A DNA stretch of 64,000 bases from Rhizobiales bacterium Y(2018). GTDB taxonomy: Bacteria > Pseudomonadota > Alphaproteobacteria > Rhizobiales > Aestuariivirgaceae. Under the pieces are notes generated by a model. The model was given only the letters and a program-made list of their open reading frames with translations, made no database searches and was not told where the DNA came from. Of the stretch, positions 28,787 to 40,303 are shown in pieces. A program made the translations under genes and the position numbers. Positions within the stretch are counted from its first letter, which is position 1. Each line of letters opens with the position of its first letter. The DNA lies in assembly GCA_005502925.1 (NCBI GenBank), contig SCPD01000013.1, positions 124,001-188,000 on the forward strand, written 5' to 3'.

Positions 28787-28871
28787 GGATGGATCACTCG
28801 CGGGGCGGGGGCCTGTACTTCGAGCCATTTGAGGCCTGCGTCAAGGCTGATAGAAGTCGCAAGGCCTCAAT

Positions 28872-29087
28872 GGTTTTCCCCTTCTCCCGCAAGCGGGAGA
28901 AGGTGGCCGAAGGCCGGATGAGGGTGCGCCGCGTGATGAATTCTCCGATTGCTTGAGATATCTATTCTCAGCTTGGCAAGACGGCATCTGGTTCTTCTCG
29001 CGCTTTCGGATAGACTGCCGCAAGATTGACCAACACCCTCATCCGCCCTTCGGGCACCTTCTCCCGCAAGCGGGAGAAGGGGAAACC
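28872..29087. repeat. Inverted-pair palindromic element A1
   Basis: Left arm 28872-28926 contains the hairpin CTTCTCCCGCAAGCGGGAGAAG, then GGCCGAAGGCC and GATGAGGGTG. Right arm 29034-29087 is nearly its reverse complement, so the unit has inverted termini of about 54 bp around a 107-bp variable core. Closely related units lie at 34671-34864 and 40077-40283. It is intergenic between the DadA-like gene and uraH. Confidence 0.9.
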
Positions 29088-29113
29088 AGCGGGCACTCCG
29101 GGAGACGACACGC

Positions 29114-31953: not shown

Positions 31954-34255
31954 GGTCAAACATTTCACGACCGAGACGGTGGGCCTGGCGCTCGCCCATG
32001 ACAGCGCCGCGCTGCATGTCCAGGGCCGGGCCATCTATATCGATGATATGCGCGAGCCCGAAGGCACGCTGCATGTGGCGCCGGGTTACGCGGCCGACGG
32101 CGCCAAAGGCCGCATCACGCGGTGTGATCTCGATGCCGTGCGTAGCTATCCGGGCGTCGTCGCGGTGCTGACCGCTGCGGATATTCCGGGTGTCAATGAT
32201 TGCAGCCCGGCGATGGGCGACGACCCGATCTTCGCGGAGGGTGAGATCCTGTTCCACGGCCAGGTCGTCTTCGCGGTGGTGGCCGAGACACATGATCAGG
32301 CGCGCCGCGCGGTGAGGCGCGCCAAGATCGAGATCGCCGAGGATCGCGCCGCCATCACCGTCGAGGATGCGCTGGAGCAGGGCACGCCGGACGTGCTGCC
32401 GCCTTACGAGTTCCGCCGTGGTGAGCCCGAAAAAAGGATTGCAGCCGCGAAGATGCGCCTCTCCGACAGTTTCCATGTCGGCGGCCAGGAGCATTTCTAT
32501 CTCGAGGGTCAGGTGGCTTTCGCCATGCCGGAGGAAGCGGGCGGCATGATTGTCCATTCCTCGACCCAGCATCCCAGCGAAGTGCAGCATTGCGTCGCCA
32601 AGATGCTGGGCGTGGCGGATGCCTTCGTCACTTGCGAATGCCGGCGCATGGGCGGCGGCTTCGGCGGCAAGGAAAGCCAGGCGGCGCAATGGGCGGCACT
32701 CGCAGCACTTGGCGCCCAGGTGACCGGCCGGCCGGTAAAATGCCGTCTCGACCGCGACGACGACATGATCATGACCGGCAAGCGCCATGACATGCGTATC
32801 GATTACGATGCCGCTTTCGACAAAACCGGCCGCCTGACGGCGGTCGATGCGAGCCTCCTGTCGCGCTGCGGCTACTCCGCCGATCTTTCGCTCGGCGTCA
32901 ATGACCGTGCGATGTTCCATTCCGACAATGCCTATTATTATCCGGCGGTCAGCATCGAATCGCGCCGCTTGCGCACCAATACCGTGTCGAACACCGCCTT
33001 TCGCGGCTTCGGCGGCCCGCAGGGCATGATGCTGGCCGAGCGCATGATGGACACCATCGCGCATCGCCTGGCGCTCGACCCGCTCGATGTGCGCAAGCGC
33101 AATTTCTATGGGCCGAAGCGTGACCGCACGCCTTACGGCATGAAGGTCACCGACAACATCATCGCCGAGGTTGTGGCCGAGCTCGAAAAGACCAGCGATT
33201 ATTATGCGCGCCGGGAAGCGATCCGGGATTTCAACGCCAAGAACCGCATTCTCAAAAAGGGCCTGGCGCTGACGCCGGTCAAATTCGGCATCTCCTTCAC
33301 GCTGATCCATCTCAACCAGGCGGGCGCCCTCGTCCATCTTTATACCGACGGCTCGGTGCATCTGAACCATGGCGGCACCGAGATGGGGCAGGGGCTCTAT
33401 ATCAAGGTCGCGCAAGTGGTGGCCGAGGAATTCGGCATCACGCCGGATCGCGTGAAGATCACCGCCACCACGACCGGCAAGGTGCCCAACACCTCGCCGA
33501 CCGCTGCCTCGTCGGGCTCCGATCTCAACGGCATGGCGGCCAAGGAAGCGGCGTCCCAGATCAAGAGGCGGCTCATCGCTTTCGCCGAGCGTGAATGGCA
33601 GGTCGCTCCGGATCAGATCCGCTTCGAGAAGGGCCGGGTGATCATCGCCAATCAGAGCATGAGCCTCGGTGAGCTGGCCAAGCGCGCGCATCAGGCGCGC
33701 ATCCAATTGTCGGCGACGGGTTTCTATGCGACGCCCAACATCACCTGGAACCGCGACAAGGTGAAGGGCAAGCCGTTCTTCTATTTCGCCTATGGCGCTT
33801 CCTGCTCGGAAGTGACCATCGATACGCTGACCGGCGAGATGCGGGTCGACCGCGTCGACATTCTTCATGATGTCGGGCGCTCGCTCAACCCGGCGATCGA
33901 TATGGGCCAGATCGAAGGCGGCTTCGTCCAGGGCATGGGCTGGCTCACCACCGAGGAGCTGGTCTTCGACAGGCAAGGCCGTTTGCGCACCCATGCGCCC
34001 TCGACCTATAAGATCCCGTGTGCCTCCGACGTGCCGGCGGATTTCCGCGTGAAGCTGTTCGCCTCGCCCGGCAACCCGGCCAATACAATCTACCGCTCGA
34101 AGGCGGTGGGCGAGCCGCCCTTGATGCTGGCGCTGTCGGTGTTTTCGGCGATCACCGATGCGATCGCCGCACTCAAGCCCGGAACGGCGCCGCCTCTGGA
34201 GGCGCCGGCGACACCGGAGGCGATTTTGAAGGCGGTAAAGGCGATGTCCGCATGA
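31943..34255 (+). CDS. xdhB: Xanthine dehydrogenase molybdopterin-binding subunit
   Basis: About 770 residues from ATG 31943, which has GGGAG at 31931-31935; a GTG at 31925 is less well supported. The large subunit motifs are present: the molybdopterin-binding RMGGGFGGKESQ, FRGFGGPQGM, and the catalytic-site GGTEMGQGLYIKVAQ. A late GQIEGGFVQGMGW follows, and the conserved Glu of the active site lies in SKAVGEPPLMLA. With XdhA it oxidises hypoxanthine and xanthine to urate. Its stop overlaps the xdhC start (ATGA). Confidence 0.95.
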   Translation: MPAEVKHFTTETVGLALAHDSAALHVQGRAIYIDDMREPEGTLHVAPGYAADGAKGRITRCDLDAVRSYPGVVAVLTAADIPGVNDCSPAMGDDPIFAEGEILFHGQVVFAVVAETHDQARRAVRRAKIEIAEDRAAITVEDALEQGTPDVLPPYEFRRGEPEKRIAAAKMRLSDSFHVGGQEHFYLEGQVAFAMPEEAGGMIVHSSTQHPSEVQHCVAKMLGVADAFVTCECRRMGGGFGGKESQAAQWAALAALGAQVTGRPVKCRLDRDDDMIMTGKRHDMRIDYDAAFDKTGRLTAVDASLLSRCGYSADLSLGVNDRAMFHSDNAYYYPAVSIESRRLRTNTVSNTAFRGFGGPQGMMLAERMMDTIAHRLALDPLDVRKRNFYGPKRDRTPYGMKVTDNIIAEVVAELEKTSDYYARREAIRDFNAKNRILKKGLALTPVKFGISFTLIHLNQAGALVHLYTDGSVHLNHGGTEMGQGLYIKVAQVVAEEFGITPDRVKITATTTGKVPNTSPTAASSGSDLNGMAAKEAASQIKRRLIAFAEREWQVAPDQIRFEKGRVIIANQSMSLGELAKRAHQARIQLSATGFYATPNITWNRDKVKGKPFFYFAYGASCSEVTIDTLTGEMRVDRVDILHDVGRSLNPAIDMGQIEGGFVQGMGWLTTEELVFDRQGRLRTHAPSTYKIPCASDVPADFRVKLFASPGNPANTIYRSKAVGEPPLMLALSVFSAITDAIAALKPGTAPPLEAPATPEAILKAVKAMSA

Positions 34256-35444
34256 AGGTCTGGGCTCACATAGCGAAATCGCTCGAAGCTGGTGAGCCCT
34301 GCGCCATGGTGTCGGTCTATCGTGTCGAGGGTTCCGCCCCGCGCGAGGAGGGCGCCCGGCTCATCCTGACGCCGCGCGGTTTCCACGGCACGATCGGCGG
34401 CGGCGCGCTCGAATGGCGGGCCTTGGCTGAAGCGCAGAAGTTGATGAAGTCCGGCCGCGCGATGTCGGTGAGCCGTCATGCGCTGGGGCCGGAGCTCGGC
34501 CAATGCTGCGGTGGCCGGGTGGAATTGCTGACCGAAGTTTTCGATAGATCGGCGCTCGCCCAGATCAGGGAACTCGCGGCGGCGGAAGCGGCAGGAGCGT
34601 TCAAGACCGCCGGCCGGCTGGAAAAGGATCATGTCGAGAGAAGCATAGAGCCTCAGAACTCCTCCTCATTCCCCTTCTCCCGCCTGCGGGAGAAGGTGCC
34701 CGATAGGGCGGATGAGGGTGTTGGTTCAGCTTGCGACGGCTCTTCAAGAGAACAAGATCGCGAAGCTTCGACACTTCCCACGCCTGCGTTCTCTACAGAA
34801 GCTGAGAGAGCACCCTCATCCGGCCTTCGGCCACCTTCTCCCGCCTGCGGGAGAAGGGGAAACCAGGAGAGAGCGTCCGAAAGCAGAACCTTGATCGAAT
34901 CCTTCGGCGAAACACAGCGGCCACTATATCTTTATGGCGCGGGCCATGTCGGCCGCGCGCTGGTCCTGGCGCTGGCGCCCTTACCTTTCGCGATCCGCTG
35001 GATCGACCCGCGGCCCGATTCGTTCCCTGCCGCTCTGCCGGCCAATGTCACCCCGGTCGAGGCGCGTGATCCCTTGGCCGAGCTCGACGCGGCGCCCCGG
35101 GATACTTTCCTCCTGGTCATGACCCACAGTCACGCGCTGGATCTCGCGATCGTCGACAAGGCGCTGCGGGACGATCGCTTTCCCTATGTCGGGCTCATCG
35201 GCAGCGCCAGCAAAAGGGCGCGTTTCCTGAGCCGCTTGCGCCAGGCGGGTGTCCCCGATGCGGGTTTTGCCGCCTTCAAATGCCCGATCGGTGTCGCCGG
35301 CATCACCTCCAAGGAACCCGCGATCATCGCCGCCGCCACCGTGGCCGAGCTTCTGGAACGGGATGAGATGTTGAGAACCGGGCGAATTCCTGGCTTTCAG
35401 GCCCGAACACCCTCTAGAATGGCTGCAAAAAAGGGCCAGGGCGG

Positions 35445-35448
<4 letters not shown>
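34252..35448 (+). CDS. xdhC: Xanthine dehydrogenase accessory protein XdhC carrying an in-frame palindromic-element insertion
   Basis: 398 residues. The N-terminal XdhC/CoxI domain (MVSVYRVEGSAPREEGARLI, FHGTIGGGALEW, GPELGQCCGGRVELL) spans about residues 15-115. The C-terminal Rossmann domain (PLYLYGAGHVGRALVLALAP, VGLIGSASKRARF, GITSKEPAIIAAA) spans about 222-380. XdhC inserts sulfurated molybdenum cofactor into XdhB. Between the domains, residues about 140-205 ([16 protein letters not shown] ... [13 protein letters not shown]) are translated from repeat element A2. This keeps the reading frame open and probably adds a disordered linker. Whether the protein still works is unknown. The stop overlaps the next gene's GTG by 4 bases. 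Confidence 0.9.
34671..34864. repeat. Inverted-pair palindromic element A2 inside xdhC
   Basis: Left arm 34671-34720 (CTTCTCCCGCCTGCGGGAGAAG hairpin, then GATGAGGGTG). Right arm 34811-34864 is its near reverse complement, with a core of about 90 bp. Same family as A1 and A3 but located within a coding sequence. The frame through it is open without a stop. Confidence 0.92.
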
Positions 35449-40052: not shown

Positions 40053-40076
40053 GCTTGCTTAGTCTGTAACAACAAT

Positions 40077-40283
40077 TCCCCCTCTCCCGCCCTGCGGGAG
40101 AGGGTGGCCGAAGGCCGGGTGAGGGTGTGGCTCAACTGCTTGGTACCAGGTTTGATGTTCCGAAGGCGCATACCGCGCCGGCCCGACTGCAATCGAATTC
40201 AATCAACTTTGACTATCGCTCGGATGAACCGACACCCTCATCCGCCCTTCGGGCACCTTCTCCCGCAAGCGGGAGAAGGGGGA
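40077..40283. repeat. Inverted-pair palindromic element A3
   Basis: Left arm about 40077-40127 (CCTCTCCCGCCCTGCGGGAGAG hairpin, GGCCGAAGGCC, GAGGGTG). Right arm 40233-40283 (CACCCTCATCCGCCC ... TTCTCCCGCAAGCGGGAGAA). Core about 105 bp. It is intergenic between the ABC binding protein and puuD, and so separates two parts of the purine island. Confidence 0.9.
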
Positions 40284-40303
40284 AGTCCGGCTGAGAACAC
40301 TCC

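Follow-up and report, generated by a model that had tools for sequence, protein, structure and literature searches.

We asked how a palindromic repeat could come to lie, in frame, inside xdhC, and which enzyme might have moved it there. The gene belongs to the window, by which we mean the whole stretch of 64,000 nucleotides analysed here from the source genome (G000); the features are collected in Table 1. An earlier note on this DNA had described an element at 34671..34864 that is translated with no stop codon. This was borne out by alignment and by the repeats of the genome itself, and the ends had been placed correctly to within 3 nt. The xdhC frame is open across the element, with 218 codons upstream, counted back to the preceding stop, and 193 downstream. 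At its 5' end xdhC overlaps the stop codon of xdhB (ATGA), and at its 3' end the start codon of the following ORF (GTGA); because of these overlaps, a frameshift in xdhC would probably upset the operon too. The RNA of positions 34640-34890 folds with -137.6 kcal/mol, compared to a mean of -88.8 for 200 shuffled sequences (z -8.65), and the messenger should therefore bear a very strong hairpin that ribosomes have to cross. Rfam gave no family at threshold within the 64-kb window.

Table 1. Positions of xdhC, its palindromic element and the related copies in the window
Feature	Window position	Strand	Details
xdhC, molybdenum-cofactor chaperone	34252-35448	+	398 aa; no internal stops
XdhC_CoxI domain	34282-34461	+	residues 11-70
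XdhC_C Rossmann domain	34924-35352	+	residues 225-367
Palindromic element, 'long-arm' subfamily, in frame within xdhC	34668-34865	+	198 bp; from genome repeats and alignment
Left arm, two hairpins	34668-34720		CCTTCTCCCGC-CT-GCGGGAGAAGG and GCCCGATAGGGC
Element centre	34721-34810		90 nt
Right arm	34811-34862		inverted relative to the left arm
Whole stretch unmatched by the empty site of G002	34647-34891	+	245 nt in place of 26 nt
Second copy	28875-29085		same arms as the xdhC copy
Third copy	40076-40284		same arms as the xdhC copy

Does the insert harm the protein? Both XdhC domains are intact and under purifying selection despite it. The protein scores 265 bits with TIGR02964 (cut-off 161.6), and between G000 and its congener G003 the first 128 codons of xdhC have dN 0.045 and dS 0.305, the last 185 codons dN 0.015 and dS 0.288. 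AlphaFold2 modelled the 398 residues with a mean pLDDT of 80.3 and a pTM of 0.71 (29 sequences, the G003 protein being present twice and those of the congeners G001 and G002 left out). The pLDDT was at least 90 at 233 of the 398 residues, which make up most of both domains, and below 50 for nearly all of residues 137-208, which lie between these two confident domains. The peptide of the insert is thus predicted to be disordered. Moreover, the insertion site is a place of variable length anyway: among the 80 of 83 XdhC sequences that had both domain motifs (three sequences with no motif match lie outside these figures), the distance between the motifs ranged from 32 to 145 residues with a median of 85, and the G000 protein, with 138 residues, was the second longest of the 80. 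The xdhC repeat is a tolerated linker insertion, as the earlier note had proposed, and its reading of an in-frame, tolerated palindromic insertion is supported.

A comparison with the Aestuariivirga congeners G001, G002 and G003 places the insertion more closely. The gene measures 1197 nt in G000, 1128 nt in G003, 978 nt in G002 and 984 nt in G001. The segment is missing from G001 and G002, and no homologue of the same length was seen among the relatives that lack the insert, all of which are shorter. Compared to G002, xdhC of G000 has gained a net 219 nt (73 codons); the earlier figure of about 65 residues placed the element rightly and was slightly short for the whole insertion. G003 carries a different insert at the same place, of a net 150 nt (50 codons) and of another subfamily: judged by the loops, both arms are of the long type in the G000 copy and of the short type in the G003 copy. 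No frameshift is apparent, as G003, a separate assembly, keeps the frame too. The left arm is read in a common frame in both genomes (EKVPDRADEG in each, frames compared by eye). The right arm is in another frame in G003, where it reads ALTRPSTTLSHPADGRGGK (by eye), which means that the outer frame has been kept and the peptide has not.

Two readings of the xdhC insert can be weighed on these data. According to the first, a single insertion in the ancestor of G000 and G003 was passed on vertically and has diverged in the ordinary way since. The same position in xdhC and the common frame of the left arms fit such a history, but the arms are long-type in G000 and short-type in G003 while the parts of the gene flanking them are 90-93% identical, and the 5-26 nt directly beside the element do not align between the two genomes; we consider it distinctly unlikely. 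The second reading, selection of the insert as a new functional segment of XdhC (for partner binding or regulation), is extremely unlikely. Its frame is kept in two genomes, but the peptide and the frame of the right arm differ between them, the insert is predicted to be disordered and the distance between the two motifs varies widely among XdhC sequences in any case. We found no evidence that the inserted peptide has acquired a function of its own. In the history that we favour, a copy would have come into this interdomain linker once the lineages of G001 and G002 had branched off. With its length (+219 nt) and its frame, it would have left xdhC and the overlapping operon downstream translatable and been retained for that reason, the ~73 added residues forming a disordered loop.

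The xdhC element belongs to a large family. The 198-bp tract matched its own genome in at least 40 places with 82-100% identity (E 2.4e-99 to 1.1e-46), a lower bound given that 40 of 133 candidates were scored; 39 of these matches were near full length and one ended at query position 170. A covariance model of one arm found at least 150 matches in G000 and 110 in G003. By loop pattern, 71 of the 72 G000 copies examined (5 of them single arms) have long-type arms (TCTCCCGC-NN-GCGGGAGA) and one was given neither type, while the 42 copies examined in G003 comprise 31 of the short type (with loops like CTCCCGTTGCGNAGCAATGGGAG) and 11 of the long type. Short arms are under-sampled in the G000 set, as its copies were picked by means of G000 arms and a model built on them; the short-arm motif, at up to 2 mismatches, occurs in 16, 56, 6 and 34 places in G000, G001, G002 and G003, respectively. 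The two further copies of the window, at 28.9 and 40.1 kb, had already been assigned to the family as intergenic, and this holds for their arms and, judged by eye from the sequence, for their position. With regard to genes, frames of at least 100 open codons on both sides were found, among the 72 and 42 copies, only for xdhC in both genomes and for L006 and L261. The latter two had no Pfam match, so that only the xdhC copy combines such frames with a recognised protein. This count refers to internal copies; those at gene ends with one long side (e.g. L005, L028 and L253) are outside it. Internal survival in frame is thus rare in this set, as expected if selection removes most intragenic insertions.

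The repeat is like a MITE in being short and present in many copies, with inverted terminal arms and without an enzyme gene of its own. No consistent target-site duplication could be recognised by eye in eight alignments, and up to ~60 nt beside the elements (more than 100 nt at two sites) were unaligned between genomes. The centres of several long-arm copies, that of the xdhC copy included, contain a short ORF of ~15 codons (MTKLQHFPRLRFYRS, a consensus made by eye), which varies among copies and is broken in some (by eye). Six G000 copies (L010, L014, L016, L020, L023 and L025) have ~100 nt of further flanking sequence in common, and a larger composite repeat therefore exists.

Repeats that are read as protein have been described before, and the xdhC insertion alone is an Aestuariivirga case of this known phenomenon. 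GTAG and CGTC repeats and MITEs occur within genes (PMC3733652, PMC2229807), and linkers and loops are named as tolerant places for repeats (PMC3733652). The earlier note had likened the element to the Rickettsia palindromic elements (RPE), which are likewise short palindromic repeats, both intergenic and intragenic, inserted in frame at tolerated places (PMC2229807, PMC3733652). The likeness holds for the effect and not for kinship: the host is Aestuariivirga and not Rickettsia, the copies here lack the CGTC end tag stated for the RPEs of R. conorii (PMC3733652), CGTC occurring within the terminal 30 nt of an arm in 22 copies out of 114, and full members that encode a nuclease are present here. 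Some large groups of palindromic repeats have no known mobilising enzyme, and the same paper states this for its CGTC repeats (PMC3733652).

Which enzyme could move the Aestuariivirga repeat? Some copies are ~495-530 bp long and contain, between the same arms, an ORF of ~124 codons with a Pfam match to DUF559 (118 bits), a gene that was beyond what the earlier reader could see. The repeat and this enzyme-encoding full element thus have their ends in common. Within the window, the left arm of the xdhC copy with 21 nt of its centre (34660-34741) is 90% identical over 84 nt to one end of a DUF559-carrying copy, and the right half of the second copy (28986-29085) is 87% identical to that same end over 101 nt. 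Because of these matching ends, the window copies are best read as internally deleted or otherwise non-autonomous. The genomes G000, G001, G002 and G003 have 7, 9, 6 and 3 DUF559 matches, respectively, and purifying selection acts on the nuclease ORFs (dN/dS 0.08-0.14 for the four of eight pairs with unsaturated dS). Furthermore, each main arm subfamily of the genus is paired with a DUF559 lineage of its own.

Among solved structures, the DUF559 profile matched 3hrl ('Endonuclease-Like Protein') with E 1.9e-38 and 3r3p ('Mobile intron protein'), which we take to be I-Bth0305I, with E 1.2e-5, compared to only E 0.26 for Vsr (1cw0). The PADLOC model of a homing endonuclease matched two of four DUF559 proteins (E 5e-6 and 3.4e-5). 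The PADLOC DpdF model matched all four at similar E-values (2.7e-6 to 3.9e-4), and short matches to nuclease models are therefore unspecific for homing enzymes.

We then counted inverted arms within 250 nt of DUF559 genes. In the four Aestuariivirga genomes they were present at 19 of the 20 loci tested; the genus has 25 DUF559 matches, all with loci, of which the fragments L283, L285, L286, L288 and L290 were left out, and L280 (profile positions 4-84 only) was kept and is the single miss. A class sample of 14 genomes from 14 other alphaproteobacterial families had arms at 13 of 22 loci, tested out of ~31 near full-length matches listed, those remaining being without a locus (the weak or partial L305-L310 were left out, and L315, cut by a contig end, was counted as a miss). 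A phylum sample of 13 genomes added 9 of 16 further loci, out of ~25 listed near full-length matches, the others again lacking a locus (L338-L346 left out; L349, also cut by a contig end, counted as a miss), and three of these nine are outside the class (G132, G170 and G176). Outside the genus, arms were therefore found at 22 of 38 loci tested in 27 proteobacterial genomes, with no detectable arms at 16, and overall at 41 of 58. The controls gave none: 0 of 395 random windows of XdhC loci, 0 of 87 other places within the loci of the class sample, and 0 of 256 non-nested ORFs of at least 100 aa in XdhC loci, including 0 of the 38 below 600 nt. The difference between 22/38 and 0/256 corresponds to p 3e-23, and that to 0/38 to p 3e-9, with loci taken as independent, which those of one genome are not.

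The arms could also be followed without reference to a particular gene. Among 34 of 57 genomes, picked by hand, the exact motif GGGAGAGGGNNGGGTGAGGG occurred in 7 of the 16 with a DUF559 match (two of these matches being partial) and in 1 of the 18 that had none (p 0.012). The contrast was weaker when one mismatch was allowed, with 8 of 16 versus 4 of 18. The reversed control pattern was found only in G069, in 9 places. In several genomes the motif places outnumber the DUF559 genes, as they should if some copies are non-autonomous; G062, for example, has 14 places at up to one mismatch and one DUF559 gene. The clear exception is G093, with 9 exact arm motifs but without any DUF559 match; the partner of its arms may have been lost or may be an unrelated one.

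Do the arms belong to the nuclease, or does it merely travel with them? Loci with more similar nucleases also have more similar arms (Mantel r 0.35; 0 of 2000 permutations; 40 of the 41 arm-bearing loci), and arms and nucleases are thus inherited together. Recognition of the arms does not follow from this, as plain joint inheritance alone would yield the same co-variation. DUF559 could accordingly be cargo, with the palindromes moved by another enzyme of the host or of a transposon and the nuclease kept for mismatch repair or defence. This would suit the 16 of 38 loci outside the genus that lack arms, and G093 with its arm motifs and no DUF559. It would also agree with work on Caulobacter, in which the DUF559 protein VsrA is proposed as a mismatch-repair endonuclease and is reported to bring about the DNA-damage response of a methyltransferase mutant (PMC12907096). 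On the other hand, arms stand at 41 of 58 DUF559 loci, and within the genus every main arm subfamily goes with a separate DUF559 lineage; we hold the cargo reading to be rather unlikely, though the most serious of those weighed here. As matching arms flank DUF559 genes, the repeat in xdhC probably derives from a DUF559 element and is itself non-autonomous. The account that we prefer, and think somewhat likelier than its opposite, is that this derivative entered the xdhC linker and that the family spreads in a homing-like manner.

The full members have the endonuclease gene between these arms, and on this account the xdhC tract would be a MITE-like member of the family. The DUF559 nuclease would cut at or near arm-type palindromes, and repair of the break would copy in another family member. 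Such cutting and copying would allow one slot, that in xdhC included, to hold different subfamilies in sister genomes. We more tentatively consider that these elements form a distinct class of bacterial mobile element, in which a Vsr-like DUF559 nuclease, its gene framed by arms that it recognises, cuts resident palindromes of its own and of related families, so that the element itself or its arms are copied in; this is a possibility to which we give a little less than even weight.

Sites of this kind exist. At least 13 sites carry an element in G000 as well as in G003, with homology of the two flanks within 150 nt (among the fetched copies; the pairs L207/L241, L023/L239, L024/L252 and winA/L259, with one flank or none, are outside this count). 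At 7 of the 13, xdhC included, the two genomes have different arm subfamilies between flanks that are ~86-98% identical, and at the other 6 they have the same arm type. At the site of the third window copy, G001, G002 and G003 (L319, L322 and L324) share, by eye, a palindrome of quite another family, CCCTCATGCTGAGGTGGCCGCG ... CACCTCAGGGTGAGGG. We also traced eight G003 sites in G000 and G002 (L232, L235 and L262 being judged by distance only). The L244 site is empty in G000 according to the alignment; by eye, G000 has at the L246 site a palindromic element of yet another, third kind, the L236 site has single palindromes of that third kind in G000 and G002, and the L253 and L255 sites have solo hairpins in G000. 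The different subfamilies at orthologous sites suggest that resident palindromes are re-occupied by break and copy, and we consider break-and-copy repair the most likely mechanism of the swaps. Such swaps could also arise without the nuclease, if dispersed copies undergo gene conversion or if elements insert independently where the site is permissive. At the site of the second window copy, G002 has the right half of the element only. The matching flanks of that site (28847-29107; L320 and L323) are ~1.7 kb apart in G003 and ~0.8 kb apart in G001, and the G003 locus L259 was ruled out as its counterpart, as it lies ~1.3 kb away.

REPINs consist of paired inverted palindromes and have non-autonomous copies, as the elements have here. 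Their likeness to the present family extends to RAYT, where fuller members have an enzyme gene between or beside the palindromes (PMC3733652). The enzyme here is different, however: DUF559 is related to Vsr and to EDxHD nucleases and is not a Y1 tyrosine transposase. It could nevertheless be argued that our elements are REP/REPIN-type repeats moved by a Y1 transposase (RAYT/TIRYT), given this REPIN-like architecture of two inverted palindromes without autonomy, and given that G000, G001 and G002 have one Y1_Tnp (PF01797) match apiece. Against this, G003 has its 110 arm matches and no Y1_Tnp match, the three Y1 loci (2.2-3.3 kb) each contain the arm core GGGAGA/TCTCCC as one isolated hexamer and no arm, and GTAG, the mark of GTAG REP/REPIN repeats at the palindrome end, is present in the terminal 30 nt of the arm in 2 of 114 copies. 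On these three grounds the Y1 transposase was rejected as the partner of the palindromes, and a Y1 origin of the elements is very unlikely.

The preferred DUF559 reading brings the family closer to EDxHD homing endonucleases such as I-Bth0305I, given the 3r3p match and sites that are re-occupied as expected of break and copy. It differs from them in that the gene lies between palindromic arms and not in an intron, and its product has one small domain of ~120 aa. The abundant intergenic repeats of rhizobia known as RIME (Rhizobium-specific intergenic mosaic elements) are another likeness, and the arms of one DUF559 locus (L347, in G163) look like RIME palindromes. Repeats of the RIME type are called of unknown function in PMC2573895. 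The GC clusters of yeast mitochondria (GC42) are also mobile palindromes that take different forms at the same homologous site, with putative co-conversion tracts of their flanks (PMC4478555); they differ in being 42-bp clusters without an enzyme gene inside, and they belong to an organelle and not to a bacterium. In the open-licence literature we recognised no description of a DUF559 gene inside a palindromic element, which is not proof of novelty, and found nothing of use on the sequence string GGGAGAGGG among the papers listed.

The larger point is that a partner has been found for the repeat, a DUF559 gene framed by matching palindromes, and this DUF559-framed family, rather than the xdhC element, is the part that deserves follow-up. 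As the arrangement recurs within the genus and also in 16 further families, from which genomes were examined, the question of the mobiliser is directly testable, and the partnership with the arms offers a role for DUF559 proteins. If these elements do form a distinct mobile class, palindrome sites between genes and, rarely, within them would be slots that change occupants one after another, and a dedicated enzyme could be assigned to many abundant palindromic repeats of proteobacteria for which no mobiliser is known.

Finally, some minor observations concern the individual loci. One DUF559 copy of G000 (L187, C5:28255-28748) gave two separate partial matches and therefore looks broken; the orthologous site in G003 (L241) has a 180-bp element without a DUF559 gene. 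The C-terminal tails of the DUF559 proteins of L303, L304, L312, L313 and L299 (e.g. SPQPSPRGER and SPNPLPQAGEG) resemble an arm read through as protein. The single Y1 gene (L153 in G001, L154 in G000 and L155 in G002) lies amid repeated TTTCGGTGACAGTGCATTNAAT-type copies in both orientations, which are dense in G002 (by eye), and these look like a separate repeat family of the tyrosine transposase.
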